Of a stretch of DNA of 52,195 nucleotides, positions 16,901 through 41,182 are shown in pieces. The stretch comes from Pelagibius sp. CAU 1746 (GTDB lineage Bacteria > Pseudomonadota > Alphaproteobacteria > Kiloniellales > Kiloniellaceae): contig NZ_JBDOQT010000003.1 of assembly GCF_039839785.1 (NCBI RefSeq), forward strand, positions 63,210 to 115,404, read 5' to 3'. The translations under genes were made by a program, and so were the position numbers. The notes under the pieces are model-generated. The model was not told where the DNA came from and searched no databases. It saw nothing but the letters and a program-made list of their open reading frames with translations. The stretch's first letter is position 1, and every line of letters begins with the position of its first letter.

Positions 16901-19900
16901 ACGACGGCATCTACGCCACGAGCGCGCAGAGTGCCTGGAACTACGTCTCCGGCGATGTCTACACCGGCGGCGAGGAAACGCTCGCCCAGGCCAACAACAC
17001 CGCCCACTCCTACGGTTACGATGGCGTGGCGAGTGCCGGCAGCGACGAGATCGAGCTGCAGGGCACGGCGAGCGACTGGGTTGCCGGCGATGCCATGGTC
17101 GCGGCCCTTAACTCGACGGCCGAGACCAACAACACGGCAATCGCCACCGGGGTGTCGACCGACGCCATCGCCGGTGACGACGAGATCGACCTTGTGACGG
17201 CTTCCTACAGCACGGTGGCTGGTGAGTCGCTGACGCGGAGCGCCGGCAGCACGGCCGACGTGGAGAACACGGCGACGGCGAGCGAGTTCAGCACAGCCTC
17301 CGCCGGCAGCGATGTGATCGAGACCGGGTTCTATGCCGACAAGGTCTCCGGCGGCGCCCTTGCCGCGGGTTCCGGGAGCGATGCGGTCATCGTCAACTCG
17401 GCGACGGCTTCCGGCAACGGCGCTGCCCATGCCGGTGGTGACGACATCACGACCGGCGAAGGTGCGGATACGGTGGCGGGCGATGCCCTGGCCATCGGCT
17501 CCAACGGCACGGCGACTTCGACCAATACGGCGTCGGCGACCGACTCCGGCTTGGCTCGCGCCGGCAACGACACCATCGCGGCGGGCCACTACGGGGATCT
17601 GATCTCCGGCGACGCCATGACGTCTCACCTGAACGGCGGCAACGCCACGGCCAACAATACGGCCACGGCGAACAGCGCCAACAGCTCGGCCCAGGCCGGC
17701 AACGACCTGATCTACGGCGGCAACGAAGGGCAGACCGAGGGTGGTTGGGGTAACGACACCATCGCCGGCGACGCCCTGACGGTGGCCGACGAGACCAATG
17801 CCGAGGCCCGGAACACGGCGGTGAACAACGTCAAGGGCGGCGAAGCCTCCGCCGGCGACGATGTCATCTTCGCGGCCGAGGGCACCCACTGGGTCGGCGG
17901 CGACGCCGTCACCCTGGGCGACTACGGTGTCTCGGAGGCCATCAACCTGGCGTCCGGCGCCGGGGCTTCCGCGGGCAACGACCTCATCCAGGTCGGCGAC
18001 AATCCGCAGAACCTCAACATCCTCGGTGAGGGCAGCGAAGGTCTCTGTGCCGGTGCGCCGGGCTCCTACATCGCCGGCGATGCGCTGGCGACCGGGGACT
18101 ACGGCGATGCCTACGCCACCAACACCGCGCTGCTGCTGGGCGGCAACGAGAACGGCGATCACAAGGCCGGCAACGACACGATCACTGCCGGTGACGGCGG
18201 TCATGTCATCGCCGGTGACGCCCTCACGACCGGCCGCGACGGCCTGGCCTCGGTCAACAACAACTCCGGCAACCTCAACGCCGCGGCTCTGGCCATCGTC
18301 GGCAGCGACTTGATCGTTTCGGGTGCCGGTGACGACCTGATCTCCGGTGACGCCCTGGCGCTCAACGGCGGGACGGCGGCCTTGACCAGCGATGGCGACT
18401 CGGCGCCCTTCGGCTCCAGTGTCAGCAACGACACGATCCAGGCCGGCGCCGGCGACGACATCATCGCCGGTGACGCCCTGGCGGTCGGTGCGGGCGGTCT
18501 GGCCGTCATCAACGGGGCCGGCGACGACTCGATCGACGGTGGGGCCGGTGACGACCTCATCGCGGGCGACGCCCTGGGCCTCTGCGGTGCGGACACGCAG
18601 GTCGATGACGACGAGGATGTCGGCAACGACACCATCCTGGGCGGCAGCGGCAACGACACCATCTTCGGCGACACCAACGATCCGGGTGAGAGCGAAGGCG
18701 GCGACGACGTGATCTACGCCGGCGACGACGATGACCTGGTCTACGGCGGCGGCGGTGACGACTACATCGACGGCGGTTCGGGTTCGGACCTGCTGTTCGG
18801 TGGCGCCGGCATCGACACGCTGGTCGGCGGCGAGGGCAGCAAGGACACCCTCTACGGTGGCGAAGACGGCGACGTGATGTATGGCGATACCTACGGTAAC
18901 GTCTATGGCGTCAACGGCGACGACGACTTCCTCTACGGCGAGGGCGGCAGCGACACCATGTACGGTGGCGGCGGCAACGACGTCCTCTACGGTGGCGAAG
19001 GCAACGACACCATGTACGGCGGTGCCGGCGACGATGCCTTCTACGTCACCGAGACCGGCGACGTGGTCTACGGCGGCGACGGCATCGACACCATCTATGC
19101 CGACCTCAGCGTCGACCTGGGCAGCCTGCAGTTCTACGACGTGGAGAACGTCATCCTGCTCGGGGCCGGCCCGGGGAACATCCTCGGCAACTCGCTGAAC
19201 AACCACCTGGTCGGCAATGCCGGTGAGAACGACATCTACGGCTTCGGCGGCGAGGATACCCTCGAAGGCCAGGGCGCGGATGACGGCCTCTACGGCGGCG
19301 ACGACAACGACACCCTCTACGGCGGCGACGGTAACGACTACCTCGACGGCGGCAACGGTGCGGACTACATGAACGGCGGCAACGACAACGACTACTACGT
19401 CGTGAACGAGGCCGGCGATCAGGTGGACGAGACCGGCGGTTCCGGCGACGACACCGTCGAATCCTCCATCGACTACGATCTGCGGGTCGATCCGGCCGGC
19501 GACGTGGTCGGCGGTGACGTCGAGAACCTGATCCTGACCGGCGGCGCCGTCTACGGGACGGGCAACGCTCTCGACAACCGGATCGTGGGCAACGCCAACA
19601 ACAACGTCTTGGACGGTTTGGCGGGGGCCGACACCATGGAGGGCGGCCTCGGCGACGATACCTACTTTGTCGACGAGATCGGCGATGTGGTGATCGAGGC
19701 CGCGGCTGAGGGTACCGACACCGTGAACTCCCTGATCACCTACGTCCTGGGCGCCAACGTCGAGAACCTGGACCTGATCGGAGCGGGTGACAAAGACGGT
19801 ACGGGCAACGGCCTCGACAACGTCATCCTGGGGAACTCCGGTGCCAACATCCTCTCGGGTCTGGCCGGCAACGACACCCTGAATGGCCACGAAGGGGACG

Positions 19901-20849: not shown

Positions 20850-21103
20850 TTCTGGCGCAGGGGAACCCCCAGCCCGGCCTCGCGGCCGCGCGCGGGCCGT
20901 TGTGCCGGCGCTATGGTTAATCCCCACCAACCTTCTTTCCTCTTTTTTTGAACCCCTTCGGCCTTTCTTCCGACAGATGAGCAGATCAAGGGCTGTGGCC
21001 CCGCCGCTCCGGAAAGGGGCGGACGGGCAGGGGGCGGGTGCGCCCGTCCCTCCGCCGCGGCCCCCTTCGGCCCCTTGGGCACCATCGTTAGGGAGTACGG
21101 TTG
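20850..21103 (+). promoter_or_regulatory. Leader region of third RTX gene
   Basis: No gene is seen. A pyrimidine-rich stretch (20930-20970) and a GC-rich stretch precede the ribosome binding site AGGGAG (21090-21095). ATGGTTAA at 20913-20920 is the CtrA half-site TTAACCAT on the opposite strand. No confident -35/-10 pair was found. Confidence 0.3.
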
Positions 21104-24100
21104 ATGTCTGTTTCCTTTGGCACTGCCCCGGCGCAGCAGCTTTCCGACGCCAAGGCCCAGGTGGAGGGCGCCGCGGCTTTCGAGAACGCGTCTCAAGACG
21201 ACGCCCAGACCCAGGCGGCCCCGGCGGCCCCAGCAATCCAGGCGGACGAGGCGCGGGTGGTGACCCCGCCGGCGGCCGGTGAGACCCTGGTCATCGCGCC
21301 CCAGGCCGGCGCCACCTACCGGCTGGCCGCCGCCCCCGGCGGCGTGACGCTGCGGAGCGAGGGCGGCGACCTGAAGCTGGTGTTCGACGCCGGCGGCGAG
21401 GGCAGCAGCCAGATCGTCTTCCAGAACCTGGCCGAGCTGGCCGGGACGGGGACGGCGCCGGTCTTCCAGATCGGCGATGCCGAGGTGCCGGGAGAGCTGC
21501 TGATGCGGCAGGCGGAGCTGCTGGCCGGCGAGGCCGAGGCGCCGCTGGAGACCGCCGCCGAAGCGCCCGCGCAGAGCGGCGGCGCCACGGCCTACAGCGA
21601 CGACCTGGGCCAGGTGCTTGAGCTGCTGACCGCCCAGGGCGTCATCGACCCGACGGAGCTGCGCTTCGGCCTCATCGAGCTGGAGGACGAGACCGGCCTG
21701 CTGCGCGAAGGCGCGGCGGCGGAAGAGGAGGCCGGGGCCCTGGTGATCAACGAGATCGGCCTCGGCGTCGTGACCAGCGTCACCATCGAACTGGCCGACG
21801 GCATTCAGATCGTCGACGGCGTGATGAACTTCGTGGAGTTGTTCAACGACCGTGCGGAGGCGTTCACCACCCAGGGCATGATCCTGGAGTTCCTCAATCC
21901 CGGCGGCGCCCTGGTGACCCTGGCGGTGCCGGACGGCCTGACCATACCGGCCGGCGGCTTCCTGACGGTCCATCAGTTCGCGGACCTCATGGCCCCCACC
22001 GGCGACGTCTTCGTTCAGGTCTTCAACGCCGCCGGCGTGGTGGTGGAGGCCGTCTTCCTGGCCGCCGAGACCTATTGGGACCTGGGCGGCGACTGCAGCG
22101 AACCCCTGGCGGTGAACCTGGTGGCGGGCGGAGAAGGCCTCGACACCTTCGCCGCCAACCTGGAGCAGGCGGACCTGGCCGTGCTGACCGATGCGAGCTG
22201 GGTCCCGGGCCCGGCGGGGCCGGCGCAGTACAGCCTGCTGTTCGAGACCTTCAACGGCCAGACCTCGACGGCGCAGACCATCTTCTCGCGCGTCTTCGGC
22301 GGCGCCGCCGACGGCAAATCGGATAGTGATGGGGCGGCCGACTGGACCACCAACGGCTTCGCCACCGAGGGCGCGCTGAACGACGTGCCCGGCTTCGTGG
22401 CGCCCGGCCCGGAGGATCCCAATCCCGGCGATGCCCAGTTCGACGACCTGGACCCGCAGCAGCACAACGCCGACCCCCTGGCCGGGCAGACGGTGGTGGC
22501 GGCCGGGAACGGCGACGACCTGCTGGAAGGCTTCGGCGGGCCGGACTTTCTCTTCGGCGGGGGCGGCAACGACTCCCTCTACGGCGGCAGCCAGGCCGAC
22601 GTGGCGGCGCAGGCGGCCCTCAACGACGAGCAGCCGGGTGAGACTCCCGAGGACGGCTTCAGCGATCACAACGACCTGCTGGCCGGTGAGGAGGGGGACG
22701 ACGCCCTCTACGGCGGGGCCGGCAACGATATCCTGTTGGGCGGCTCCGGCGCCGACTCCATCGACGGCGGCAGCGGCGGCGACCTCATCCACGGCGACGA
22801 TCAGGTCAATATCGAACCGAACCTGGACGACGTACTGGCCGGCGACGGCCTCAACAACATGCTCGACGGACCGGCGGGCGTGTCGGCGCTGACCAACCTG
22901 GGCGGCGACGACTCGCTCTACGGCGGCCTGGGCGACGACGTCATGGCCGGCGAGGCCGTGGCCTATACCGTCGACGGCCTGGCGCAGGGCCTGGCGCGCA
23001 ACGACGATGCCGCCGGGGGCTTCGACCCCAACGGCAACGACAGCCTGGAAGGCGGCGACGGCCATGACCGCGCCGCGGGCGAGGCGCTGGCCCATAGCAG
23101 CAACGACGACGCTTTCGCCGGCGTGCTGAACCGCGCCCACTTCGGCGGCGCGGTCGGCAACGACACCCTGGTCGGCGGCACGGGGGACGACTCCCTGGCC
23201 GGCGAGGCCCTGGTGGTTTCCGACGGCGGCGAAGGCATGGCCGACGTCATCCTGGAGGCCCTGGCCGGGATCGTCGGCAACGACAGCATCAGCGGCGAGG
23301 AAGGCAGCGACGTCATGGGCGGCGAGGCCGTGGCCTTCGGCCAGACGTCGGTTCTCGTCTCCGTCGAGACCGGCGCCAGCGGCGTCGGGACGCAAGCGGG
23401 CGTCGACTACCTCTTCGGCGGGGCGGAGTCCGACATCGTGGCCGGCGAAGCGGTGGCGCTCTCCGATGGGGCGGTTTACGCGGAGGTGGAGAACTACGCC
23501 GAGGACGGCGCCCTGGGCGGCGGCGATTCCGTGGGCGGCGGCGGCGGGGTCGACCTGCTGGCCGGCGACCTCATCGCCCAGAGCAGCACCGGCAGCGTCC
23601 AGGCGACGGTCCTTAACCAGGCCGACAACGGCGAGGCCGGCTGCGACATCGTGGCCGGCGGCGCCGGTGCCGACGCCATGGCCGGCGACCTGCTGGCCCT
23701 TGGCGACGACGGCACGACGGCTCTGGTGGTCAACGAAGGCAGCGGCGACAACGCCAGGGCAGGTTGCGACCAGCTCATCGGCGGCGAGGATGGCGATGTC
23801 ATCGCAGGCGACGCCCTGGTGGCTCTGGGAAGCGCTACGGTGGAGAACCACCTGCTGGCGGGCCTGCCCTCTGTGGGTCAGGACACCATCCATGGCCTGG
23901 AGGGCAACGACCTGATCTCCGGCGACGTGCTGGCCAGCGCCGGCGGTTCGGCCGTCATGAACACCCTTGGGTTTTTTGCACAGCCGCCGGCGGGCGACAG
24001 CATCGAGGGCGGCGACGGGGCCGACACCATTGCCGGCGACGCCCTGGCGGTGAACGGCACCGCCGGCGTCGGGACAGGCGGCAGCGACACGATCCTGGGT

Positions 24101-24904
24101 GGCGCGGGCGACGACGTGATCTCCGGCGACGCCCTGGTGGTCGGCGTCGGCCTGGCCGAAGTCACCGAGCTCGGCGGCTTCGACAGCATCGACGGCGGCG
24201 ACGGCAACGACCTGATCTATGGCGACGCCAACACCGGCGGCGGCGAGAGCCACGGCGGCGAGGACACGCTGATGGGCGGTGCGGGCAACGACACCATCTT
24301 CGGCAACGGCGGCGACGACACCCTGGGCGGTGGCGCCGACGACGACACCCTGATCGGCGGCAGCGGCGACGACCTCATGTTGGGTGAGGACGGCAACGAC
24401 TACCTGGACGGCGAGTTGGGCAACGATACCCTGCTGGGCGGCCTGGGCGACGACTTCCTGAGCGGCGGCCTGGATCAGGACTTCCTCTTCGGCGGGGGCG
24501 GCGAGGACTTCCTCTTCGGTGGCAGCCACAGCGACACTCTGAACGGGGGCGCCGGCGGAGACACGCTGACCGGCGGCATGGCCGCCGATACCTTCGCCTT
24601 CTCCAACGGCAACTTCGGCGAAATCGACAACGTCACCGACTTCACCATGGGTGACGGCGACATCCTCGACTTCGGCGACCTGCTGCTGGGCGTCGGCGCC
24701 GACGACGGCGCGACCCTGGACGACTATCTGGAGGTCACCTGGGACGGCGTGAACTCGACCATCGGCGTCGACCTCAACGGCGATGCCAGCGGCTTCACGG
24801 ACCACTACGTCGTGATCGAAGGGCAGGACCTGACCAGCCTGGGCGCGACGCAGGATCAGATCCTCCAGGCCATGATCGACGGCGGCAATCTGACCGGGAT
24901 GTAG
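21104..24904 (+). CDS. RTX adhesin paralogue, 1266 residues
   Basis: I chose the ATG at 21104 (MSVSFGTAP), with AGGGAG 8 bases upstream, over the TTG one codon earlier. It has the same plan as the giant gene in short form: N-terminal retention-like region with PAAG (56-59) and TAAE (150-153), the latter aligning with VAAG of the giant protein; a lamin-tail-like domain (about 210-425; INEIGLG, FVELFN, IPAGGF); then directly the NADPLAGQ/GGPDFLFGG junction without the beta-propeller; about 11 AGND/GDA repeats (nt about 22901-24180); canonical GGxGxDxL repeats; and a T1SS target domain ending at a Met after GNL. It probably arose by duplication of the same ancestral gene and is likely exported by the same T1SS. 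Surface adhesin role inferred. Confidence 0.93.
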   Translation: MSVSFGTAPAQQLSDAKAQVEGAAAFENASQDDAQTQAAPAAPAIQADEARVVTPPAAGETLVIAPQAGATYRLAAAPGGVTLRSEGGDLKLVFDAGGEGSSQIVFQNLAELAGTGTAPVFQIGDAEVPGELLMRQAELLAGEAEAPLETAAEAPAQSGGATAYSDDLGQVLELLTAQGVIDPTELRFGLIELEDETGLLREGAAAEEEAGALVINEIGLGVVTSVTIELADGIQIVDGVMNFVELFNDRAEAFTTQGMILEFLNPGGALVTLAVPDGLTIPAGGFLTVHQFADLMAPTGDVFVQVFNAAGVVVEAVFLAAETYWDLGGDCSEPLAVNLVAGGEGLDTFAANLEQADLAVLTDASWVPGPAGPAQYSLLFETFNGQTSTAQTIFSRVFGGAADGKSDSDGAADWTTNGFATEGALNDVPGFVAPGPEDPNPGDAQFDDLDPQQHNADPLAGQTVVAAGNGDDLLEGFGGPDFLFGGGGNDSLYGGSQADVAAQAALNDEQPGETPEDGFSDHNDLLAGEEGDDALYGGAGNDILLGGSGADSIDGGSGGDLIHGDDQVNIEPNLDDVLAGDGLNNMLDGPAGVSALTNLGGDDSLYGGLGDDVMAGEAVAYTVDGLAQGLARNDDAAGGFDPNGNDSLEGGDGHDRAAGEALAHSSNDDAFAGVLNRAHFGGAVGNDTLVGGTGDDSLAGEALVVSDGGEGMADVILEALAGIVGNDSISGEEGSDVMGGEAVAFGQTSVLVSVETGASGVGTQAGVDYLFGGAESDIVAGEAVALSDGAVYAEVENYAEDGALGGGDSVGGGGGVDLLAGDLIAQSSTGSVQATVLNQADNGEAGCDIVAGGAGADAMAGDLLALGDDGTTALVVNEGSGDNARAGCDQLIGGEDGDVIAGDALVALGSATVENHLLAGLPSVGQDTIHGLEGNDLISGDVLASAGGSAVMNTLGFFAQPPAGDSIEGGDGADTIAGDALAVNGTAGVGTGGSDTILGGAGDDVISGDALVVGVGLAEVTELGGFDSIDGGDGNDLIYGDANTGGGESHGGEDTLMGGAGNDTIFGNGGDDTLGGGADDDTLIGGSGDDLMLGEDGNDYLDGELGNDTLLGGLGDDFLSGGLDQDFLFGGGGEDFLFGGSHSDTLNGGAGGDTLTGGMAADTFAFSNGNFGEIDNVTDFTMGDGDILDFGDLLLGVGADDGATLDDYLEVTWDGVNSTIGVDLNGDASGFTDHYVVIEGQDLTSLGATQDQILQAMIDGGNLTGM
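22901..24180 (+). repeat. About 11 coding repeats of the AGND/GDA type
   Basis: By hand count about 11 units carry the same GND-xI...AG(D/E)A-x-A...N-x-A signature as the giant gene, here more often as AGEA. This shows the repeat is a reusable module rather than a peculiarity of one protein. Confidence 0.75.
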
Positions 24905-26200: not shown

Positions 26201-26230
26201 GGTCTTCGCTTCCTCTTCCGACGGGTTCGA

Positions 26231-27409: not shown

Positions 27410-27612
27410 GTCGAATCCCTTCGTCCGGACCGGGCCGGTGTAAGCGATCCGGCCCGCCTTCTTGATCCCACGATTTGGTTGATAATTAGTTCTTCTGCGC
27501 CGCCGCAACAAGAAAATAGGGGGCTTGGGGCGCCGGCTATACTTATGATTCTCAAAGCAATAGCAGGATTATCCCGGAACCTCTCGCGCCGTTCTTGAGA
27601 CCGTCATCGAAC

Positions 27613-28713: not shown

Positions 28714-28755
28714 GAGTCCTCAGCTGTCCCGATGCCGTGGTGAGGGTGCCTGTAG

Positions 28756-30345: not shown

Positions 30346-30621
30346 TTAGAGGTTGGAGAGGGCTTCGTCGAGTTCGTCGCCCTTCTTGGCCTCGGAATCG
30401 AGACGGTCCTTCTCGGCCGTGCGCTCCTGCAGTTGCTCCAGAGCCTTGGCCAGCTGCAGCGTCAGGTTCTTCAAGGAGCCCGTCGGCATCATGAGCGTGC
30501 CGGCCTGCTGGGCGGTAAGCTCGCTCTTGCCGTTCTTACGGCGCAGCTGCATCAGCTCGATGCGCACCACGCCGTTGGTAACGACGATGGAGCCGACCCC
30601 GTCTGCGAAGATCTCCGTCAT
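30346..30621 (-). CDS. Small conserved-looking protein, 91 residues
   Basis: I take the ATG at 30621 (MTEIFADGVGSIVVTNGVVRIEL); the much longer open frame through it to 31668 is an antisense shadow of the protease gene in its upstream part. The first ~35 residues look like a beta-strand-rich domain, followed by a Lys/Glu-rich predicted helix (LKNLTLQLAKALEQLQERTAEKDRLDSEAKKG). No signal peptide or membrane segment. It is the last gene of the lapG-like group, 146 bases after the protease stop. I do not recognise a named family; a link to T1SS or adhesin regulation is only suggested by position. Confidence 0.7.
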   Translation of the reverse strand: MTEIFADGVGSIVVTNGVVRIELMQLRRKNGKSELTAQQAGTLMMPTGSLKNLTLQLAKALEQLQERTAEKDRLDSEAKKGDELDEALSNL

Positions 30622-30767: not shown

Positions 30768-31862
30768 TTACGGCGACGTGGCATGCAGCAACTGCCCCAT
30801 CGTTTCCAGAGAAGGTTGGGCCGAAGCGGCCAGGCCGTTGTCCGCCTTGAAGCGCCTGAGGGCCTCGGCCCGGGCCTCTCCGGAGGCATCCTCGTCGCCA
30901 ACCTGAAGGTAGCCGAGCTTGACCAGCAGGTTGTCGATGGTCGCAAGCGGTACCCTGGCGGCTTCGCTGGCCTCGCCGGGCAGGCGGCCGGGGGCCCAGC
31001 GCGCGGAGGTGGCCGCCAGCGCCTGCACCGCGGCGCGGCGGCCCCGCTGGGGCTGGAAGGCGCTGAGGGAAAGCACGCCGGCCAGATGCTTCTCGTCTCC
31101 GGACATCAGGTCTATCGAATGCAGTCCGGCCGCGTAAAAGGTTCCGTCCGCGTAGAGCAGCAAAGGAGAGCCGGAATCGCCCTGGATGACGTCGCAGTCG
31201 TGCACCACCACGCGGCCTTTCTCTGCGATGCCGGCGATGTTGCAGGCCCAGCCGGCGGTCATCACGTGCGCCAGGTCGCGACGGTAGCCGGCCTGGAGCA
31301 GCAACGCGTCGCCGGCGCTGATCCGCGACATCATCAGGCTGTCGATCGCGCGCAGGCCGAGCCAGCCGGCCTTGCGCCCGAGCGGCTCGGCCAGGGTCAG
31401 GATGGCCCAGTCGGTCGCCGCCACCTCCAGGCTCGGCTGCGATACGTAAGTGAAGTCGTCCGCATGGGTGTAGCTGGCGACCTTGGAATGCAGGATGAAA
31501 CGGTCGCGCTGGTATCCTGCGATGAAGTGCAGCTCGATGGCGCCGCGCCACCGCCCGACGACGGGATCGTAGAGGCAATGCGCGGCGGTGAGCACGTGGC
31601 GCTCGCTGATCAGGAAACCGGTGCAATGACCGCGTCCGCCGGCATTGACGCGGCCGATGGCGCTCCAAGGGTATTCCATCGCGTTGACGGCGACGCGCCG
31701 CTCGGGCGCCTTCACCCGCAACTCGACGGCCGCGGCCACGGGCGGCGGCGGTGCGGCGAGGAGGAGGGCGGACAGACTGAGGGCGGAAGCCAGGCGAAGC
31801 AGCGCCCTGGCGTGGTTCAGGACCGGATCAACCGGTCGCAATGCTGGCAATAAGTTTTTCAC
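30768..31862 (-). CDS. Secreted trypsin-like serine protease
   Basis: Likely GTG start at 31862, overlapping the end of the HD-GYP gene by 35 bases; downstream starts are possible because no good ribosome binding site decides it. A Sec signal peptide is evident (LLRLASALSLSALLLAA, cleavage near AAA-V). Chymotrypsin/trypsin-fold protease with complete triad: His95 in LTAAHC, Asp151 in ATDWAILTL, Ser230 in QGDSGSPLL (numbers from the GTG). The C-terminal ~60 residues (LVKLGYL...EALRRFKADNGL...LETMGQLL) resemble a peptidoglycan_binding_1 domain, so it is probably a periplasmic or wall-tethered protease. Its translational coupling to the HD-GYP/LapG pair suggests a role in processing the same surface proteins. 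Confidence 0.83.
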   Translation of the reverse strand: MKNLLPALRPVDPVLNHARALLRLASALSLSALLLAAPPPPVAAAVELRVKAPERRVAVNAMEYPWSAIGRVNAGGRGHCTGFLISERHVLTAAHCLYDPVVGRWRGAIELHFIAGYQRDRFILHSKVASYTHADDFTYVSQPSLEVAATDWAILTLAEPLGRKAGWLGLRAIDSLMMSRISAGDALLLQAGYRRDLAHVMTAGWACNIAGIAEKGRVVVHDCDVIQGDSGSPLLLYADGTFYAAGLHSIDLMSGDEKHLAGVLSLSAFQPQRGRRAAVQALAATSARWAPGRLPGEASEAARVPLATIDNLLVKLGYLQVGDEDASGEARAEALRRFKADNGLAASAQPSLETMGQLLHATSP

Positions 31863-33921
31863 CGGGAATCGTCGCTACAACCTGTTTCAGGGCCTCGATC
31901 ACCTTGGGATCATAGCGCGTCAGGTTCTCTTGGAGAATATCCAGGACGGCATCGGGCGCAAGTCCGGCGCGGTAGGATCGGGGCTCCAGGCGCGCACAGA
32001 AAACGTCGCAGGCACCGAGTATCCGTCCCGTGAGGGAGATTTCCTCTCCCTTCACTCCTTTGGGGTATCCGCCGCCGTCGAGGCGTTCGTGCATCTGCGC
32101 GATGGTCTCGACCACGGGCAGTTCGAAGTCGATGCCGCGCAGGAACTCGACGGCATGGCCGACGTGGGCTTCCATCTCCTTGATCTCGTCCGGCGTGAGG
32201 CGCGCCGGCTTGGTCAGCAGCTCCTTACGCACGGAAAGCTTGCCGATTTGAGAGAGATTGGCGGCCAGTTCCAAGGTCGCGAGTTCTTCCTCGCTGCAGC
32301 CGAGCTGCTTGCCGACCGCGGCGGCGAACTCCGCTACCCGGCGGGAATGGCCGGCCAGGTAGGGGTCGCGCAGCTCGATGGCGCGCACCAGGGCGGCGAC
32401 CATCTGCTGGATGGCGTGCTCCTTTTTGCGCTGCTGCTCGACCAGTTCCGTCACGTCGCGGGTGACCGAGACGATGCCGCTGGCCTCGCCGGTCGCGGCG
32501 AAGAAGGGGACCTTGGAAATTTGGAGGTAGCGCAGCGCGCCGTCGAGATAGACTTCCTCGTCGGTGGTTACGCTTTCGCTGCTGTTGAGCACGCGCCGAT
32601 CGCTCAAGGCGAGGCGCTTGGCCGTGCCCTGGCCGAAGATCGCGGCGTCGTCGAGGCCGACCATGGAGTCGGGCCTGCGGGAGACCGCCTTGGCGAAGGC
32701 CGCGTTGGCATAGCGGTAGGTGCCGTCCGGCGCCTTCAGGCCGATGAATTCCGGAATCGCGCCGTTGATGCTGTCCAGCAACTGCTTCTGGGCCTGGATG
32801 CGGTCGGCCAGACTGCGGTACTGCTCCGCCAGGGCACGGTCGTGGACGCTGGCGAGGCGCCACCAGAAGGCGCCGAAGGCGACGGCGACGGCGAGCACCA
32901 CCAGCACGGAAACGATGATGGCTGCGGTCGTGTAGGTCGCCAAGGGACGTTCGGCCGCGGCGACCGTGATTTCTTCCAGCACCCACCAGGTCGGGCCGGA
33001 GACCATGGTGCCGGCGGAATAGACCGCGCCCAGCCCGGCCAGGGAGGGCCGCTGGGCGAAGGGAATCTCGCCGGCTGCCAGATCGAAGCCGTCGATGCTG
33101 ACCGGGGCGATGGGCGTTGCCGCGCCGGGCTGGATGCGGCCGAGTTGGCCGCCGTCGAACTGTACCAGCACTCGTTCCGTTCCGGGGCTGGCGAGAGGAT
33201 CCTTTGAGAGGATTTCCGCCAGGCCGCTGGCCAGCGGCGTCACCAGGATGAAGACGGCGACGGGCTTGCTCTGGCCCGGATTGACCTGCGCGGCGTAGAT
33301 CGGCACCGCCATGTCGAGGACCAGGCCGGCGGGCGCACTGCGCGCCGGACCGTAAACCGTCTGGGAGCGCTCGAAGCTGTCCTCCGCCAGCCGGCGCTGA
33401 TCGACCGAGAGCGGCACCGCGCCGCTGGAGGTGACGAAGGCGACCCCGTTGCGTCCCACCAGGTAGCCGGCCAGGAAGTCGGCGTTGGCGGCGAAGTCGG
33501 TAATGATACGCTCGATAAAAGGAACCTGTTCGACCAGCGGGACGCCCAGGCCGTTCTCGTCGGTTTGCGGCGCGACCATACGCGACATGTCGCCGCCGGC
33601 CAGATCCATCTCGGTGGAGAAGAGACGCAGCAGCTCGCTTTCGACCACCGGGTCGGCGAGGCGGCGGTTGCCCTGCAGCCAAGTGGAGATGACCCCGGCC
33701 TGGCCGCTGGCGGTGAGCTGCAGGCGCTCGGCGACCTGCTCGGTGAGCTGGGCCTTCTTGGTCCCGATGGTGAGGCTCGGCACCAACACCGCTGCCAATG
33801 CGATCACGGCCAGCACGGCGGCACCCCAGACGAGCAGGCGTCCGCGCTGGCGCTGTTCCGGCGCATCGCTCAGCGTGGAGAAATCCAGCATGTCGACGGT
33901 CTGGTCACCTTGATGGCTCAT
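31828..33921 (-). CDS. Membrane PAS/degenerate HD-GYP receptor
   Basis: 697 residues. TM1 about 27-50, a ~275-residue periplasmic sensor region (about 53-326), TM2 about 328-352, a PAS domain (about 379-485), then an HD-GYP domain (about 510-670). HD-GYP proteins normally hydrolyse c-di-GMP, but metal-binding positions are altered here: the hallmark HD is Ser557-Gln558 (LSQIGK instead of LHDIGK) and the HH pair is Met610-His611 (MHERLDGGGYP). His525, His586 and the GYP remain. I infer loss of phosphodiesterase activity with possible retained c-di-GMP binding. The gene starts 35 bases after the lapG-like gene, so the two are co-expressed; the architecture (two TMs, large periplasmic domain, cytoplasmic c-di-GMP-type module) parallels LapD, although no GGDEF-EAL is present. 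Confidence 0.88.
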   Translation of the reverse strand: MSHQGDQTVDMLDFSTLSDAPEQRQRGRLLVWGAAVLAVIALAAVLVPSLTIGTKKAQLTEQVAERLQLTASGQAGVISTWLQGNRRLADPVVESELLRLFSTEMDLAGGDMSRMVAPQTDENGLGVPLVEQVPFIERIITDFAANADFLAGYLVGRNGVAFVTSSGAVPLSVDQRRLAEDSFERSQTVYGPARSAPAGLVLDMAVPIYAAQVNPGQSKPVAVFILVTPLASGLAEILSKDPLASPGTERVLVQFDGGQLGRIQPGAATPIAPVSIDGFDLAAGEIPFAQRPSLAGLGAVYSAGTMVSGPTWWVLEEITVAAAERPLATYTTAAIIVSVLVVLAVAVAFGAFWWRLASVHDRALAEQYRSLADRIQAQKQLLDSINGAIPEFIGLKAPDGTYRYANAAFAKAVSRRPDSMVGLDDAAIFGQGTAKRLALSDRRVLNSSESVTTDEEVYLDGALRYLQISKVPFFAATGEASGIVSVTRDVTELVEQQRKKEHAIQQMVAALVRAIELRDPYLAGHSRRVAEFAAAVGKQLGCSEEELATLELAANLSQIGKLSVRKELLTKPARLTPDEIKEMEAHVGHAVEFLRGIDFELPVVETIAQMHERLDGGGYPKGVKGEEISLTGRILGACDVFCARLEPRSYRAGLAPDAVLDILQENLTRYDPKVIEALKQVVATIPGEKLIASIATG

Positions 33922-33956
33922 TGCGAACTTATCCCACAGAAGGAATTAACGATCAT

Positions 33957-34685
33957 TTACAAAGATGCCGTGCGATTCTTACCGTAAAAATGCGCCCAGC
34001 GGGTAGTTTCATTCATCGAATACTGCGGCACATAGTGTTTATACTTCTTGTGCGAGAAAATCAGGTCCGTGAGGCTGTCGAGGATCAGGATGTCGCCCAG
34101 GGCGTAAACCGCCAGGACCGCGTGGCCCAGGCGGCGGATCCGGTCCATGAGGATCACCACCCTCAGGTCTTCATTCGCCATGCCGAGGTCGCGCAGCGCG
34201 AAGAACTTGGCGATCGAATAGTCCTCGCAGTCGCCCGAGCGCTTCATGAACTCCGTGGGCGTGGCCCAGAATTCGCTGACGCCGTAGAGCTCGCGGTCGA
34301 TTTTGTAGGGCCAGCGATTGAAGTAGCGATTGACCACCTTCAGCATTTCCAGCTGCGGCTTGCCCTTGGCCTCGGTGGCGACTTCCCGCCATGACCGGAG
34401 GCCCGCCGTGGTGCAAGCGGCGGGGTTGTTCAAACAGGCGTGGAACAGCTTGCGCTCGGACTTCATCTTCGCCAGGACGCGCGCCCACTGAGGTAGGGCC
34501 TTCAGGTTGGCCGCCGAAACTTCGGTGGAGCCGAACAGCGCCGTGCCGGCGGCTGGGGCCGTTTTCATCAGGTCCTGCAGGCTCTGGGCGGCCGCGTCAT
34601 TGCGCCGGGCATCGACGAGCAGGCCACAGGCGGTGGCCCCCGCGAAAGCGGCGGAACAACGGAGGAAGGCGCGGCGGTCCAACAA
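33957..34685 (-). CDS. lapG: LapG-type periplasmic cysteine protease
   Basis: Bacterial transglutaminase-like cysteine proteinase (LapG/DUF920 family), which in pseudomonads cleaves LapA-type adhesins after a di-alanine in their N-terminus and so releases them from the cell. The catalytic triad is visible: Cys in SGDCEDYSIAKF, His in RLGHAVLAVY, Asp in ILDSLTD, at residues 153, 188 and 203 from the chosen start, with spacing like LapG. I choose the TTG at 34685 because GGAG lies 5 bases upstream; the frame is open to a TTG at 34703. The N-terminus has a DRRAFLR motif before a hydrophobic stretch, fitting a twin-arginine or Sec signal. It heads the group with the HD-GYP receptor and the trypsin-like protease. 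Substrates are probably the RTX adhesins in this window. Confidence 0.87.
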   Translation of the reverse strand: MLDRRAFLRCSAAFAGATACGLLVDARRNDAAAQSLQDLMKTAPAAGTALFGSTEVSAANLKALPQWARVLAKMKSERKLFHACLNNPAACTTAGLRSWREVATEAKGKPQLEMLKVVNRYFNRWPYKIDRELYGVSEFWATPTEFMKRSGDCEDYSIAKFFALRDLGMANEDLRVVILMDRIRRLGHAVLAVYALGDILILDSLTDLIFSHKKYKHYVPQYSMNETTRWAHFYGKNRTASL

Positions 34686-34870
34686 GACGGCTCCAGGAAA
34701 CAAGACCGAAAGCCCGGCTTTTGAAACTCATGCCGGGCTTCCTAGAGGATCGCCGTTTTGCCTTAATGGAGTTTTGCCAAAAGTGGTTTACGCAGCGGCT
34801 TTGGCTGTCGTCGAAAGTGCCAGAAAATCAAGGGCTTCCGCCGCTTCAAGCGGTTAACGGCCGGAAACGG

Positions 34871-34941: not shown

Positions 34942-36276
34942 TCAGCGCTCCCGCAAGGCCGAATCCTTCGCCTTGAGGATAGGCTTCAGAAGGTAGTCGA
35001 GCACCGATTTCTCGCCGGTCAGAATCTCGGCCGTGACGGTCATGCCGGGAATGATCGGCAGTGTCTCGCCGCGGTGGTACAGCGAGTTTTCCTCGGTGCG
35101 CAGGTAGACGTGATAGAAGCTCTCGCCCTGTTCGTCCTTGATGGTGTCGGCCGAGATGCGCTCCAGCTTCGCGGTCAGGCCGCCGTAGATGGAGAAGTCA
35201 TAGGCCGACACCTTGATGACCGCCTTCTGGTTGGGGCGCAGGTAGGCGATGTCGGCCGGCCGGACACGAGCCTCGACGATCAGGCTGTCGTCCAAGGGGA
35301 CGATTTCCATGATGTCCTGGCCCGGCTGGATGACGCCGCCGACGGTGTTGATCTTCATGTCCTTGACGGTGCCGCGCACCGGGGAGGCGACCGCGGTGCG
35401 GGTCACCCGGTCCTGGCCGGCGAAGAGCGATTGCGAAATCGATTTCAGTTCGGCGCGGGTCTTGTTCAACTCGTCTGAAGACTCCGTCTGCACCGTCAGC
35501 TGCATTTCCTCAATGCGCTGGGCGGCCTCGTTCTGGGCTGCCTTCAGGCGCGGGATCGAGGCCTGGATGGTGCGGATCTCGCCCTCCAGGTCGGCGACTT
35601 GGCGCTCGATGCGGATCAGCTCGATGCGCGGCATGACACCCTTCTGCACCAGCGGCGAGGTGATCGCCAGCTCGTCGCGGGCCAGGCTCAGGCTCTGTTC
35701 CAGCTGGCGGCGCCGGCTGGCCATTTCGGCCACTTCCTGCTTGCGCTGCTGGGCCTGCGACTTGAGGACGGAGATCTGGGCGTCGAGCTGGCGCTTGCGC
35801 GCGTTGAAGAGGCGCTGCTGGTCGGCCGCTACGGTCGGCGCCTCATTCTCGACGGCGGACGGAAAGGTGATCTCATCCTTGCCGTCGATCTCCGCCACCA
35901 GGCGGGCTTCCGTCGCCAGCAAGGTGAGGTACTGCGAACGGGCGTCCTCCAGGTTGGCCTGGGCCAAGGTGTTCTCGATGCGCACCAGGACGTCGCCGGC
36001 TTCGACGATGTCGCCCTCATGGACCAGGATCTCGGCCAAGATGCCGCCTTCCAGGTTCTGGATCACCTGGGTGCGGGAGGAGGGGATGATGGTGCCCTCG
36101 CCGCGGGTCACCTCGTCCAGGATGGCATAGTGCGCCCAGACGCCCATGACGCCGAAGAAGCTGACCGAGAGGACGGTCAGGATGTAGGCGAAGCGTCGGC
36201 CGCGATGCCGGGTCGCGGCATGCACATCCGGCATGAAGTCCAGATCGTCGCGATCGAAAACGCCGTGTGCACTCAT
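34942..36276 (-). CDS. T1SS membrane fusion protein, HlyD family
   Basis: 444 residues. Periplasmic adaptor that links the inner-membrane ABC transporter to the TolC-type channel. A cytoplasmic N-terminus of ~30 residues is followed by one TM segment (about 30-52, YILTVLSVSFFGVMGVWAHYA), a biotinyl-lipoyl-like half-motif (GGILAEILVHEGDIVEAGD), a long coiled coil (about 110-275), the second lipoyl half (ASPVRGTVKDMKINTVGGVIQPGQDI), and a beta-barrel end (PGMTVTAEILTGEKSVLDYLLKPI) characteristic of the type I secretion HlyD family. It begins 59 bases after the ABC transporter gene and is co-transcribed with it. LapC-like by context. Confidence 0.93.
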   Translation of the reverse strand: MSAHGVFDRDDLDFMPDVHAATRHRGRRFAYILTVLSVSFFGVMGVWAHYAILDEVTRGEGTIIPSSRTQVIQNLEGGILAEILVHEGDIVEAGDVLVRIENTLAQANLEDARSQYLTLLATEARLVAEIDGKDEITFPSAVENEAPTVAADQQRLFNARKRQLDAQISVLKSQAQQRKQEVAEMASRRRQLEQSLSLARDELAITSPLVQKGVMPRIELIRIERQVADLEGEIRTIQASIPRLKAAQNEAAQRIEEMQLTVQTESSDELNKTRAELKSISQSLFAGQDRVTRTAVASPVRGTVKDMKINTVGGVIQPGQDIMEIVPLDDSLIVEARVRPADIAYLRPNQKAVIKVSAYDFSIYGGLTAKLERISADTIKDEQGESFYHVYLRTEENSLYHRGETLPIIPGMTVTAEILTGEKSVLDYLLKPILKAKDSALRER

Positions 36277-36335: not shown

Positions 36336-38741
36336 CTATCCGTTGCTGGCGCGAATTTGGCCTTGGCGGAGCGCCTTCAGCACGTCGTCCTTGGGGCCGT
36401 CGGCCACGATCTTGCCGTTGTCGATGATGAGCAAGCGGTCGACCATGGACAGCAGCGAACTACGGTGCGTCACCAGGAACAGCGTCTTACCCTTCAAGGT
36501 GCCTTCGAGACGCCGCTTGAAGGCTGCTTCCGACGAATTATCCATGTGGCTGGTCGGCTCGTCCAGCAGGATAATCGGCGGGTCGAGCAGCAGGGAGCGG
36601 GCGATCGCCACCGACTGTCGCTGACCGCCGGACAGGCCCATGCCGCGTTCGCCGACCTGCAGGTCGAAGCCATGCGGGTGGGTACGCAGGAAGTCGCTGA
36701 CGCCGGCCACCTCGGCGGCGCGCAGGATGCTTTCGTCGTCCACGTGGGGCGCGCCGAAGCAGATGTTGTCGCGCACCGAACCGAAGAAGAGATAGTTGTC
36801 CTGGGACACATAGCCGACGTTGCGGCGCAGGTCGGCGGGATCGACCTGGCGGATATCGGTGCCGTCGACCAGGACCGCCCCCTCCATCGGCTCGTAGAGG
36901 CCGACCATCATGCGGGCCACGGTGCTCTTGCCGGAGCCGATGCGCCCCAGCATTCCGACCCGCTCGCCGGGATTGATCTTGAAGGACAGGCCGTCCAGCG
37001 CCTTGGTCTCCTGTCCCGGATAGCTGAATGTGACCTGCTTGAATTCAATCTGGCCGCTGAGCCGCGGGCGGTGCAGGAACTGCTTGTTCTGGGCCCGCTC
37101 GACCGGGGCCTTCATCAGGTTGTCGAGCGACTTGAGGGCGACGCGCGACTGCTGCAGGCGGGTCAGCATGGCCGCCACCGCGCCCAGCGGCGCCAGGGCG
37201 CGGCCGGTGAGGATCGTGGCCGCGATCAGCGCGCCCATCGTGATATTGCCTTCGGCGATCTGATAGACGCCGTAGACGATGACGATCACCGTCGACATCT
37301 GGATGGCGATCTGGGCGAAGGTGGTGGCCAGGCCGGCGATGAAACGCGCGCGCCCCGAAGAGGCGGCGGACATGCCGACGAAGCGCTCCCAAGACTTCTG
37401 GACCCTACCTTCGGCGGCGGTCGCCTTGATGGTTTCCAGGCCGTCGATGGTCTCGATCAGCAAGGCGTGCTTCTGGCTGGCCTCGCGCTGGCTTTTCTCG
37501 ACCAGCGAGCGCAGCGGATACTGCAGGAAGAGGCCGGCGAGGATGACCAGCGGCACCATGGCCAGGGGCACGAAGGCGACCGGTCCGGCGACGATATAGA
37601 TGACGCCGATGAAAAGGAAGATGAAGGGCAGGTCGACCAGCGCCACGAGGGTGCCGGAGGTGAAGAACTCGCGCAGCGATTCGAATTCGCGCAGATTGTT
37701 CGCCATGGCGCCGGTAGAGGCCGGCTTGGAGTCCAGCCGCGTCGACATCAACTGCTCCAGCAGGCGGCTGGCGATGATGACGTCGGCGTTCTTGCCGGCG
37801 ACGTCGACGAAGTACGTGCGCAGGTTGCGCATCACGAATTCGAAGCCGAAGACCGTGATAACGCCGACCGCCAGCACCCAGAGGGTCTCGATCGCCTGGT
37901 TCGGCACCACGCGGTCGTAGACGTTCATGATGAACAGCGGGCTGGCGATGGCGAAGCAGTTGATCAGGATCGAGGCCAGCAGAACGTGGCTGTAGATCGG
38001 CCAGAATTGCCACAGTGTGCCCCAGAACCAGGCGCGCGGCTCGGCCAGCTTGGTTTCCGGCGCGCGCTCGTCGAAGCGCGCCTCGGTGCGGGCGAAGATG
38101 GCGTAGCCGGTATGCTGCTCCTGCAAGCTTTGCACGTCGACGGTCTTGGAGGTGCCGCCCGCCTCGGGCAGCAGCACGTCGGCCTGGCCCCGGCTGATGT
38201 TCTGCAGCACGCAGCAGCTGCCGCCCTTGAGCAGCAGAATGCAGGGCAGGGTGACCGGCAGAACGCGGTTCAGATGGGGGCGGCGCACGACGCGGGCCGA
38301 CAGCCCGGCGCGCTCGGCCGCGCGCACGGCCAGTTCCGGCGTGAAGGGTTCGTTGGCATGGGGCAGGCCCGCTTTCAGCGCCTCGGTGGAAATGGGCCGC
38401 TGCATCAGGCCGGCCAGCATCGACAGGCAGCGCACCAGCGGGTCTTCGAAGTCGACGGTGCCGGGGGCCACGTCCCAGCCCTTTTCGGGCTCTGCCGCCG
38501 CGATCAGGTCCTTGGCCTTAAGAACGGCGCTGGGGCGCTTCGCATCGGGGATCGTGTCCCCGGTCTCTTCGTCCCCGTTCTCGGCTTCCGCCAGATTGGC
38601 GGACATGGATGCCTCTTCGGCGGCGGCGCCCGGGCTCTTCAGGTCCGGGTCGGTCCAGGTATCCGCCTTGCCGTCCTTGGCTTTGCTCTTGCCTTTTGCG
38701 GACTTGTCTTTGAAGGCGGTGCTATCGTCGCGGGCAGCCAT
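36336..38741 (-). CDS. T1SS ABC transporter/permease, LapB type
   Basis: 801 residues. Exports RTX substrates. It has an acidic/lysine-rich N-terminal extension of ~105 residues; a C39-like domain (about 106-235) of the LapB kind (DPLVRCLSMLAGLMQRPIS...AGLSARVVRR), which normally binds substrate rather than cleaving a leader; six-TM exporter core (about 255-545); and an ATPase with Walker A GRIGSGKST, signature LSGGQRQ, Walker B IILLDEPTS. The start ATG at 38741 has TAGGAT upstream. It is transcribed as a unit with hlyD, divergent from the tolC-like gene about 1 kb away. Probably the exporter for all three RTX proteins, since no other ABC exporter is in the window. Confidence 0.94.
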   Translation of the reverse strand: MAARDDSTAFKDKSAKGKSKAKDGKADTWTDPDLKSPGAAAEEASMSANLAEAENGDEETGDTIPDAKRPSAVLKAKDLIAAAEPEKGWDVAPGTVDFEDPLVRCLSMLAGLMQRPISTEALKAGLPHANEPFTPELAVRAAERAGLSARVVRRPHLNRVLPVTLPCILLLKGGSCCVLQNISRGQADVLLPEAGGTSKTVDVQSLQEQHTGYAIFARTEARFDERAPETKLAEPRAWFWGTLWQFWPIYSHVLLASILINCFAIASPLFIMNVYDRVVPNQAIETLWVLAVGVITVFGFEFVMRNLRTYFVDVAGKNADVIIASRLLEQLMSTRLDSKPASTGAMANNLREFESLREFFTSGTLVALVDLPFIFLFIGVIYIVAGPVAFVPLAMVPLVILAGLFLQYPLRSLVEKSQREASQKHALLIETIDGLETIKATAAEGRVQKSWERFVGMSAASSGRARFIAGLATTFAQIAIQMSTVIVIVYGVYQIAEGNITMGALIAATILTGRALAPLGAVAAMLTRLQQSRVALKSLDNLMKAPVERAQNKQFLHRPRLSGQIEFKQVTFSYPGQETKALDGLSFKINPGERVGMLGRIGSGKSTVARMMVGLYEPMEGAVLVDGTDIRQVDPADLRRNVGYVSQDNYLFFGSVRDNICFGAPHVDDESILRAAEVAGVSDFLRTHPHGFDLQVGERGMGLSGGQRQSVAIARSLLLDPPIILLDEPTSHMDNSSEAAFKRRLEGTLKGKTLFLVTHRSSLLSMVDRLLIIDNGKIVADGPKDDVLKALRQGQIRASNG

Positions 38742-39246: not shown

Positions 39247-39664
39247 TCTTTCCGGGGAGGGCATGAGGCGAAATGAACATGGCCGCGCCGGTGCGGTGGA
39301 GTTCAAGGCGGGAGGGGATTCCTTCCCTATCGCCGGACCTATCGCCGGACTGGCGGCCGGATTTGTCTGTATCGAATTAACCAAGTGGAACCCGTCGGAG
39401 CTACCTGGCCGTCTAGGCCCGCCGCTCAAGGCCGGTTGACAGAATCGGCAGAGGAGCCTAGGCAGGCGGTGTGCGCGACGGTTTCGCGATCTGGTTCGGT
39501 TTCCGGCGGGCTTTGGTCCGCAAAGAAGTAGCCAAAGTAGTTGAGATGGGTCGATTTCAACCCATGGGCATTCTAAACACGGGTAGTTGTGACTAATTTA
39601 TCACGGTGTGACATGTCAGTTTGCGCTACCCCAAATTAACTCTGTTTTGCCTTTGGGGGCCGCG

Positions 39665-39694
39665 TTGACAGCCAAACTAGAAACGGGTTACAAG
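39665..39694 (+). promoter_or_regulatory. Candidate sigma-70 promoter for tolC-like gene
   Basis: A perfect -35 TTGACA (39665-39670) is followed 18 bases later by TACAAG (39689-39694), a fair -10. Transcription would start near 39700, about 100 bases before the chosen start codon. This also argues against a translation start near 39608. Confidence 0.45.
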
Positions 39695-39805
39695 TCACGC
39701 ATATTTCTAGATTTGTTTGCCTTATCGTCCGGTCATCAGGGACGCTACAGGTCCGACACGGGGGAGAGGTATTGGATGCAAGGTTTTATGTCGGGGGAAG
39801 CTAGC

Positions 39806-41182
39806 ATGCGCTGGTCTCGCAGGACGAGTTTGAACAACTTTAAGGCGGCTCTTCTTGGGGGCGCCTTGGTATTTCCACTGGCGGTGTCGGCAAATGCGAT
39901 GACGCTGCAAGAGGCGGTCCAACAGGCGATCGCCACCAACCCGGACATCGGTATCGTGGCCAGCAACCGTGAAGCGGTTGACCAGGAACTGCGTCAGGCC
40001 CGCGGCCTTTACTTGCCGCAGATCGACGTGGCGGCCGGTATCGGTATCGAAAATTTCAACGACTCTACGTCTCGCGCCAACAACAACGGCGGCACGGAGA
40101 CCACCAATCGCCGTGAGTCCTCGATCACGCTGCAGCAGCGTTTGTTCGACGGTTTCGAGGCGGGGGCGACGGTCGAGCGTGAAATGGCGCGCGTTGAGTC
40201 GGCTGCCAGCCGTGTTCTCGAGAATTCCGAAGTTCTGGCGCTGGATGCCATCGGCGCCTACCTGGAAGTACTGCGTCAGCGCGACCTGGTTCGTCTGGCG
40301 GAAGACAACGTGGCCTATCATCAGCAGGTGCTGGATGCGCAGCGCGCACGCCTGCAGGGCGGCGGCGGCAGTCAGGCCGACGTCGACCAGACGGAGGCCC
40401 GCTTCTCGCGTGCCAAGAACACCCTGGTCACCACCTTGCAGGACCTGCGGGTTTCCGAGGCCGTCTACACCCGCATCGTCGGTTCCTTCCCGGGCAACGA
40501 CCTGAGCTATCCGGAGTTCCCGGCCGGCTCGCTGCCGTCTGATCTGGATGGCGCCGTGCAGTTGGCCGTGCGCAACAATCCGACCACCAAGATCTTCGAA
40601 GCCGACGTCCGTACGGCGGAGGCCGAGATTGAACTGGCGGAGGTGCCGCTTTATCCGGCGATCACCCTGGAAGCCCAGTCCGAGTACAACGACGGGACCT
40701 CGGCGCTCGACACCTATGAGTTCAATAATCAGCTCATGGTGCGGGTGCGGTGGAACATCTTCCGCGGCGGCATCGATCGCGCGGCGCGTCAGGAAGCGCT
40801 GTTCCGCCTGACGGAGAGCAAGAACCGGCGTTATCGCTCCGTGCTGGAGTCCCAGCAGGAAATGCGCCGGTCCTGGTTCGAGCTCGAGGCGGCTCGCGAC
40901 AGTATTGAAGCGCTGGAAGATGCCCGAGACTTCAACCGGTCAACCCTGGGCGCTTATGAGCAGCAGTTCGAAGTCGCACAGCGGACCCTGCTGGACGTCC
41001 TCGACGCGGAGAACGAACTCTTCACCTCCGAGGGTCAGCTGATCACGGCTCAGACCAATGAGCAGCTTGCCTCCTACCGCATTCTCGGGGTCGGCGGCGT
41101 GCTGCTGGAGACCCTGGGCGTCAGCGCGCCGGAGCAGGCAGTCGTCGAGCACAAGTCGTGGATCGACGGTCTGGCCGACTGA
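39806..41182 (+). CDS. TolC-family T1SS outer-membrane protein
   Basis: 458 residues from the ATG at 39806, which has GGGGGAAG 5 bases upstream and gives a clean Sec signal peptide (MRWSRRTSLNNFKAALLGG...VSANA). An ATG at 39776 with GAGAGG upstream is an alternative that adds 10 residues. The mature protein starts MTLQEAVQQAIATNPDI and shows the two TolC-type halves of paired coiled coils and beta strands (AGLYLP-like block ARGLYLPQIDVAAG; second half EIELAEVPLYPAITLEAQSEYN). It forms the outer-membrane duct for type I export with the divergent HlyD/ABC pair; LapE-like by context. A terminator follows. Confidence 0.93.
   Translation: MRWSRRTSLNNFKAALLGGALVFPLAVSANAMTLQEAVQQAIATNPDIGIVASNREAVDQELRQARGLYLPQIDVAAGIGIENFNDSTSRANNNGGTETTNRRESSITLQQRLFDGFEAGATVEREMARVESAASRVLENSEVLALDAIGAYLEVLRQRDLVRLAEDNVAYHQQVLDAQRARLQGGGGSQADVDQTEARFSRAKNTLVTTLQDLRVSEAVYTRIVGSFPGNDLSYPEFPAGSLPSDLDGAVQLAVRNNPTTKIFEADVRTAEAEIELAEVPLYPAITLEAQSEYNDGTSALDTYEFNNQLMVRVRWNIFRGGIDRAARQEALFRLTESKNRRYRSVLESQQEMRRSWFELEAARDSIEALEDARDFNRSTLGAYEQQFEVAQRTLLDVLDAENELFTSEGQLITAQTNEQLASYRILGVGGVLLETLGVSAPEQAVVEHKSWIDGLAD

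Follow-up and report, generated by a model that had tools for sequence, protein, structure and literature searches.

A probable alphaproteobacterial Dvh-type adhesin-release switch with an inactive HD-GYP receptor in Pelagibius sp. CAU 1746

The window, a 52,195-nucleotide stretch of the Pelagibius sp. CAU 1746 genome (4.66 Mb, 98.59% completeness, five contigs, of which the window occupies part of C3), contains a gene pair that very probably represents an alphaproteobacterial Dvh (LapDG-like) adhesin-release switch, in which a catalytically dead HD-GYP domain senses c-di-GMP and its receptor restrains a LapG-type protease. The observations are the gene pair itself, homology of the receptor to DvhD in all domains, the loss of the metal ligands, retention of part of the c-di-GMP contacts, the nearby adhesins, synteny with T1SS genes, and a genome in which no LapD was detected. 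By analogy with DvhD, the receptor would bind c-di-GMP, restrain the protease and switch in the same direction. The sequence-only reading had already proposed a dead HD-GYP protein that does the job of LapD. This proposal is very probably right, given the DvhD homology and the shared SQ, but it is not new, because such a receptor has been published for Desulfovibrio (PMC13090378).

In the proposed mechanism, the HD-GYP domain would bind c-di-GMP but not cut it. When c-di-GMP is high, the receptor would undergo a conformational change across the membrane, such that its dCache domain restrains the LapG-like protease and the N-terminal retention domain of the giant adhesins keeps them anchored in the TolC-like pore. 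A fall in c-di-GMP would free the protease to cut the adhesins at [T/V]AAG, behind the retention domain, and the adhesins would leave the surface. The features involved are listed in Table 1.

Table 1. Features of the Pelagibius locus, in window coordinates
Feature	Coordinates	Strand	Basis or remark
First adhesin, C-terminal part, with RTX repeats and vWA domain	3..4346	+	N-terminus outside window, at about C3 58763, carries VAAG
RTX-like giant repeat protein (5241 aa), putative adhesin	4930..20655	+	N-terminal beta-rich domain, helix, then VAAG
VAAG, residues 144-147, candidate LapG/DvhG cleavage site	5359..5370	+	low-confidence stretch after folded N-terminal domain
Third adhesin, same N-terminal domain (match 21188-21781)	21101..24904	+	site reads TAAE
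Small protein, about 91 aa, often after trypsin-like gene	30346..30621	-	13/18 loci
Trypsin-like serine protease, GDSGSP	30768..31862	-	putative signal peptide by eye; GTG start assumed
DvhD-type receptor, TM-dCache-TM-PAS-inactive HD-GYP	31828..33921	-	697 aa; Pfam, PDB sequence and fold matches
Met610-His611 replacing metal-binding HH	32089..32094	-	translation, alignment
Ser557-Gln558 replacing metal-binding HD	32248..32253	-	translation, alignment
Periplasmic dCache domain, residues about 55-325	32947..33759	-	AF2 model; 9rc2 match
LapG/DvhG-type periplasmic cysteine protease (BTLCP, Peptidase_C93)	33957..34703	-	Pfam; LapG structures 4u65, 4fgo; triad
HlyD/LapC-type membrane fusion protein	34942..36276	-	HlyD_3 E 5e-21; synteny
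LapB-type ABC transporter	36336..38741	-	N-terminal C39-like stretch; synteny
TolC/LapE-type outer membrane factor, divergent	39608..41182	+	OEP E 9.6e-51; synteny

The receptor is homologous to DvhD in every domain (dCache-TM-PAS-HD-GYP). Three windows of its hydropathy profile rise above the cut used (residues 26-55, 220-239 and 325-359). The outer two are read as TM segments that enclose roughly 270 periplasmic residues, and residues 220-239 are taken as part of the dCache fold, because the AF2 model places a strand and a short helix there. PAS_4 (389-494) and HD_5 (511-674) match above their Pfam cut-offs, and together with the hydropathy they agree with the initial description of a two-TM protein with a periplasmic domain of about 275 residues, a PAS domain and an HD-GYP domain. 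The best matches among PDB sequences are the PAS/HD-GYP (9rc0, E 2.9e-82) and HD-GYP (9rbz, E 2.3e-54) constructs of DvhD. The DvhD dCache construct 9rc2 is the sole match to the periplasmic part, fourth of six overall (E 9.2e-32), and is again the only match when residues 55-323 are searched alone (E 1.7e-32). A profile of 36 receptor sequences finds 9rc0 at 8.4e-122 and 9rc2 at 2.9e-51, and a Foldseek search with the AF2 model (mean pLDDT 83, pTM 0.45) returns DvhD chains at all of ranks 1-6. The best named match is in Pelagibius marinus (92% identity), a genus assigned to Rhodovibrionaceae (Rhodospirillales, Alphaproteobacteria), and plasmid records contain no match to the receptor at E 1e-40. 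Assignment of the receptor as a LapD was rejected, as it has no LapD_MoxY_N, GGDEF or EAL domain. The most conserved 15-residue stretch of the periplasmic part is residues 92-106 (VVESELLRLFSTEMD), which overlaps a predicted helix at 96-107. An AF3 model puts helix alpha1' at the DvhD-DvhG interface (PMC13090378), and we infer that the conserved stretch and helix correspond to it.

In Desulfovibrio vulgaris, the LapG-like DvhG is under the control of DvhD, whose effective Kd for c-di-GMP is 99 nM (PMC13090378); the window receptor would, by this analogy, also bind c-di-GMP. DvhD residue n is n-2 in the window receptor, according to a gapless alignment of the HD-GYP construct. PMC13090378 names eight contacts of the canonical site. 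In DvhD numbering, five of them (Y523, L577, Y621, R650 and Y652) are identical in the window receptor and three are changed (K582 to I, M646 to R and E668 to N), so the canonical site is partly kept; R653 is identical as well. Among 36 aligned receptors (29 of the SQ/AQ/AG type, including that of the window, and seven of the MN type), R650, R653 and L577 occur in every sequence and Y652 in 33. The bridging site differs at all three of its residues (K520 to R, P567 to R and R569 to E); position 567 is P in 29 of the 36 sequences and R in three, namely the window receptor and two others. The second c-di-GMP site may therefore be missing in the window receptor. PMC13090378 leaves unclear whether the bridging site is an innovation of DvhD, and for this reason the site is not counted here as defining a DvhD receptor.

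Perhaps the receptor works chiefly as an outside-in sensor, such that a periplasmic ligand of the dCache domain, and not c-di-GMP, sets LapG activity, and the HD-GYP domain is a relic used for dimerisation. dCache domains are usually ligand sensors, and the unkept bridging site also fits this explanation. However, conservation across the 36 aligned sequences is highest in the HD-GYP domain (a mean of 2.85 bits, versus 2.18 for the periplasmic part), where R650, R653 and L577 are invariant, and the homologous DvhD does bind c-di-GMP (PMC13090378). We therefore consider a receptor governed from the periplasm to be unlikely, and favor the c-di-GMP-sensing switch.

The altered residues described in the sequence-only reading, SQ for HD and MH for HH, are confirmed by translation as S557-Q558 and M610-H611. 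The metal ligands of active phosphodiesterases are thus absent from the window receptor, and its GYP motif is present. The HD pair is substituted in all 36 aligned receptors, and the first position of HH is never His. DvhD likewise has SQ for HD, has Met-Asn for HH, and failed to hydrolyse c-di-GMP (PMC13090378). Full-length homology to DvhD, together with the same SQ, supports the mechanism of a catalytically dead receptor by homology. An HD-GYP domain that is still an active phosphodiesterase, lowering c-di-GMP locally and acting on another LapD, would suit the HD-GYP fold and the retained GYP motif, but these substitutions, the failure of the SQ-bearing DvhD to hydrolyse its ligand and the search for LapD described next make this very improbable.

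The LapD N-terminal family (PF16448) has no matches in the Pelagibius genome at E values up to 10, in a search that had no positive control (0 of 14 control genomes scored above the cut-off). The genome has matches to BTLCP (four), HD_5 (HD-GYP; three), GGDEF (seven) and EAL (four, of which one scores under the family cut-off). Visual inspection of the four EAL proteins revealed no LapD-like layout, in which two TM segments flank a sizeable periplasmic domain; one of the four has two N-terminal hydrophobic stretches with no sizeable domain in between. The sequence-only reading depends on there being no canonical LapD elsewhere in the genome, and none was found in these searches. The LapD N-terminal family is present in 10 of 385 genomes of the class (nine above the cut-off, in matched frames of 442-879 aa), and none of these 10 is among the 21 class genomes that carry the receptor.

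The LapG-like ORF comprises 248 aa when counted from the first TTG; position 34685 corresponds to a later TTG, and the start codon is uncertain. The protein matches Peptidase_C93 above the cut-off (E 1.2e-17), and the catalytic triad that had been read from its sequence is found as C159, H194 and D209, located within GDCED, GHAVL and LDS, respectively, with the DCE motif present. Its N-terminus includes a twin-arginine-like DRRAFLRC and, by eye, resembles an export signal. Both ORFs of the pair are confirmed, as is the previously noted gap of 35 bases (33922-33956) that places the protease gene upstream of the receptor gene.

Receptor homologues are found in 25 of 41 related genomes (E 1e-40), 21 of 385 class genomes (1e-60; at most three candidates scored per genome) and seven of 398 phylum genomes (1e-45; at most two scored per genome), with the Pelagibius genome included in each count. 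A BTLCP gene lies within 600 bases in 52 of the 56 distinct receptor rows, so the pair is kept in relatives, on which the initial proposal also depended. The four receptors lacking a BTLCP gene are two at contig ends (L017, which has a LapG fragment at the edge, and L066) and L041 and L042, which have none even in the surrounding 18.7-20 kb. L039, a shorter row excluded from the 56 because of its length, has none either. Within the Pelagibius genome, two of the four BTLCP genes adjoin two of the three HD_5 genes, for which the chance is about 1e-5 in a rough estimate that assumes 4300 genes. The second pair is located at C2:646396-649073 (L067 18127 to L068 1083), and no match to the T1SS proteins of the window occurs within the 40 kb around it. 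Its neighbors on the other strand are, by eye, a CHASE2/cyclase-like gene and a gene for a 2232-aa FecR-like RTX protein. That the window genes are chance neighbors, an unrelated BTLCP beside an HD-GYP gene that serves something else, can practically be dismissed, because, although the other two BTLCP genes of the genome (on C1) have no HD-GYP neighbor, the protease adjoins 52 of 56 receptor homologues and the protease and receptor trees separate the same MN-type group.

Beyond the published work consulted, the alphaproteobacterial pairs fall into two co-inherited forms, an SQ-type with both genes on the same strand and an MN-type with the genes on opposite strands. Among 40 rows with SQ/AQ/AG receptors, the protease is on the same strand in 37 and lacking in three. 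Of the 16 rows with MN/LN/MS receptors (L040, L041, L043-L047, L095, L099-L101, L103 and L105-L108), 15 have the protease on the other strand, 14 of them head-to-head and one tail-to-tail, and one has no protease. Two of the MN-type rows (L099 and L103) come from genomes of another class of the phylum. MN-type sequences group together in both the receptor tree (SH-aLRT 100, 16 rows) and the protease tree (SH-aLRT 100, 15 rows), which are quick trees without bootstrap. Because four genomes of family f48 carry both forms side by side, the SQ-type and the MN-type each behave as a unit. All 29 SQ/AQ/AG rows of the alignment retain the GYP tyrosine, versus one of seven MN rows. Distances among receptors and among proteases have a correlation of 0.94 over 1378 pairs, which is not taken as proof because the pairs are not independent.

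The PAS/HD-GYP part of the MN-type matches DvhD (4.8e-73), and its periplasmic part (profile A3, nine rows) has no match to the DvhD dCache domain at E 0.01. In a quick tree, DvhD clusters with the MN-type rows (SH-aLRT 94), with a warning of long branches meeting, and no direction of transfer is therefore claimed. A description of the MN-type form was not found among the matches listed from the open-licence literature; the class-level figure of PMC13090378 may include such genes.

Also beyond the published work consulted is a lineage of SQ-type LapG proteins that do not have the catalytic cysteine. In all four f48 genomes (genus g59, L032-L035), the SQ-type protease has Ser in its place, within GGDSEDF in three cases and GGGSRDF in L032, and the protease of L036 has Asp. 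The His and Asp of the triad remain in all five, and the Cys is intact in the MN-type proteases that these f48 genomes also encode (L105-L108). Judged by these replacements, the Ser-bearing proteases have presumably lost activity, although Ser could in principle still act. No LapG without this Cys was found in the titles and abstract openings of the literature among the matches listed.

A broader reading is that the DvhD-type receptor is a common alphaproteobacterial substitute for LapD that exists as two separately inherited receptor-protease units, the MN-type having largely lost the GYP tyrosine, and that in one genus the SQ-type has become non-proteolytic, as a dead phosphodiesterase with a dead protease, beside an intact MN-type protease. 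We offer this generalization tentatively, as a possibility that we somewhat doubt. If true, the two pseudo-enzymes would form a signalling pair next to a secretion system.

The minus-strand gene order in the window is ABC transporter, membrane fusion protein, LapG-type protease, receptor and trypsin-like protease. The Peptidase_C39 match of the ABC transporter scores 20.7 bits, under its cut-off of 22. T1SS genes, a giant adhesin with a retention-type N-terminus and a di-alanine-type site are all present in the window. The interval from the adhesins to the secretion operon holds four glycosyltransferase-like ORFs (24992-30183, minus strand), of which three recur downstream in L049-L055 and the fourth (27613-28713) is matched only in L053. 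A 3730-aa minus-strand ORF (8896-20088) was rejected upon comparison of its translation with the adhesin at 4930-20655 on the opposite strand, in high-G+C DNA. Pelagibius is not named among the listed literature matches on biofilm and c-di-GMP.

The N-terminal 230 residues of the 5241-aa adhesin have matches in 27 of 41 genomes, counting that of Pelagibius itself. Five copies occur in the Pelagibius genome (C1:1282263, C1:2523257, C3:58763, and window positions 4930 and 21188), and one related genome (G018) has eleven matches. The AF2 model of this region (overall mean pLDDT 63) has strands and a short helix at residues 43-123, which form a well-scored domain, followed by a helix at 124-134 and an unstructured stretch with VAAG at 144-147. 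The model suggests that the VAAG-bearing stretch is probably disordered. DvhA has the same layout of N-terminal domain, helix and unstructured stretch with the site (PMC13090378). The site reads TAAG in 19, VAAG in five and TAAA in two of 26 aligned adhesin N-termini. In the Pelagibius genome it was read in four of the five adhesins, as VAAG in three (two at C3 and one at C1:1282263) and TAAE in one; the adhesins of the window region thus have VAAG, VAAG and TAAE, none of which is exactly [T/A/P]AAG. The N-terminus has no Pfam match, and its profile has one match to PDB sequences up to E 1, at 0.97. A PDB fold search returned no match at E 0.001 (the best is 3.1e-3, and the top rows are mostly RTX and clostridial repeat domains), so a known fold is not claimed.

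Provided that its GTG start is right, the trypsin-like gene shares 35 bases with the end of the receptor gene. Its link to the receptor goes beyond the published work consulted: of 18 related loci (L049-L066), 16 have the gene in the vicinity of the receptor, although 2-6 kb away in two of the 16. The two exceptions are L061, where the sequence stops 1.6 kb beyond the receptor, and L064, which is the second P. marinus pair. Among 20 wider loci, the gene is on the other strand in four from f48 (L078-L081). To our knowledge, a trypsin-like gene is present in no known Lap or Dvh operon. The protein is probably exported and has a weak peptidoglycan-binding-like C-terminus, below the cut-off. As speculation, it may trim the adhesins or regulate the LapG-type protease.

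If the Pelagibius pair works as proposed, LapG control by a DvhD-type receptor is not confined to sulfate reducers, and the absence of LapD does not imply the absence of c-di-GMP-controlled adhesin release. The original reconstitution paper is reportedly that of Karbelkar et al. According to the discussion in PMC13090378, sulfate reducers may have repurposed an HD-GYP enzyme. An older origin, or transfer, becomes testable through the diversity of the alphaproteobacterial pairs. Figure 9b of that paper gives the class-level distribution of DvhDG, and the word alphaproteobacteria does not appear in its main text. The passages of PMC3032545 and PMC4694147 that concern HD-GYP or BTLCP proteins tie no HD-GYP protein to LapG.

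The Pelagibius receptor shares the HD-GYP fold with the active phosphodiesterases PmGH (4mcw) and V-cGAP3 (5z7c), but its metal ligands are missing and it is a TM receptor tied to lapG. The Lap system of Pseudomonas fluorescens (LapD, LapG and LapA) resembles the Pelagibius locus in its BTLCP protease, its LapB/C/E-type secretion genes and a cleavage site close to [T/A/P]AAG. In contrast, the Pelagibius receptor is not LapD, as it is without LapD_MoxY_N and the HAMP-GGDEF-EAL arrangement.

The closest likeness is to the Dvh (Bfs) system of D. vulgaris. Both have a dCache-PAS-HD-GYP receptor with SQ and with M as the first HH residue, a LapG-like protease encoded directly upstream, and more than one giant adhesin with an N-terminal retention-type domain, a helix and a di-alanine site. 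The order of ABC transporter, membrane fusion protein, G and D is also that of DVU1017, DVU1018, DVU1019 and DVU1020 (PMC11784015). The receptors are 38-45% identical in the cytoplasmic part and 26% in the dCache domain (Foldseek rows). They differ in that HH is Met-His in Pelagibius and Met-Asn in DvhD, and in that Pelagibius does not keep the bridging c-di-GMP site. The Pelagibius protease has an N-terminus that looks, by eye, like an export signal, whereas the D. vulgaris protease is TM-anchored. Finally, unlike the Dvh system, the Pelagibius genome has two G-D pairs, five adhesin N-termini and the additional trypsin-like gene.
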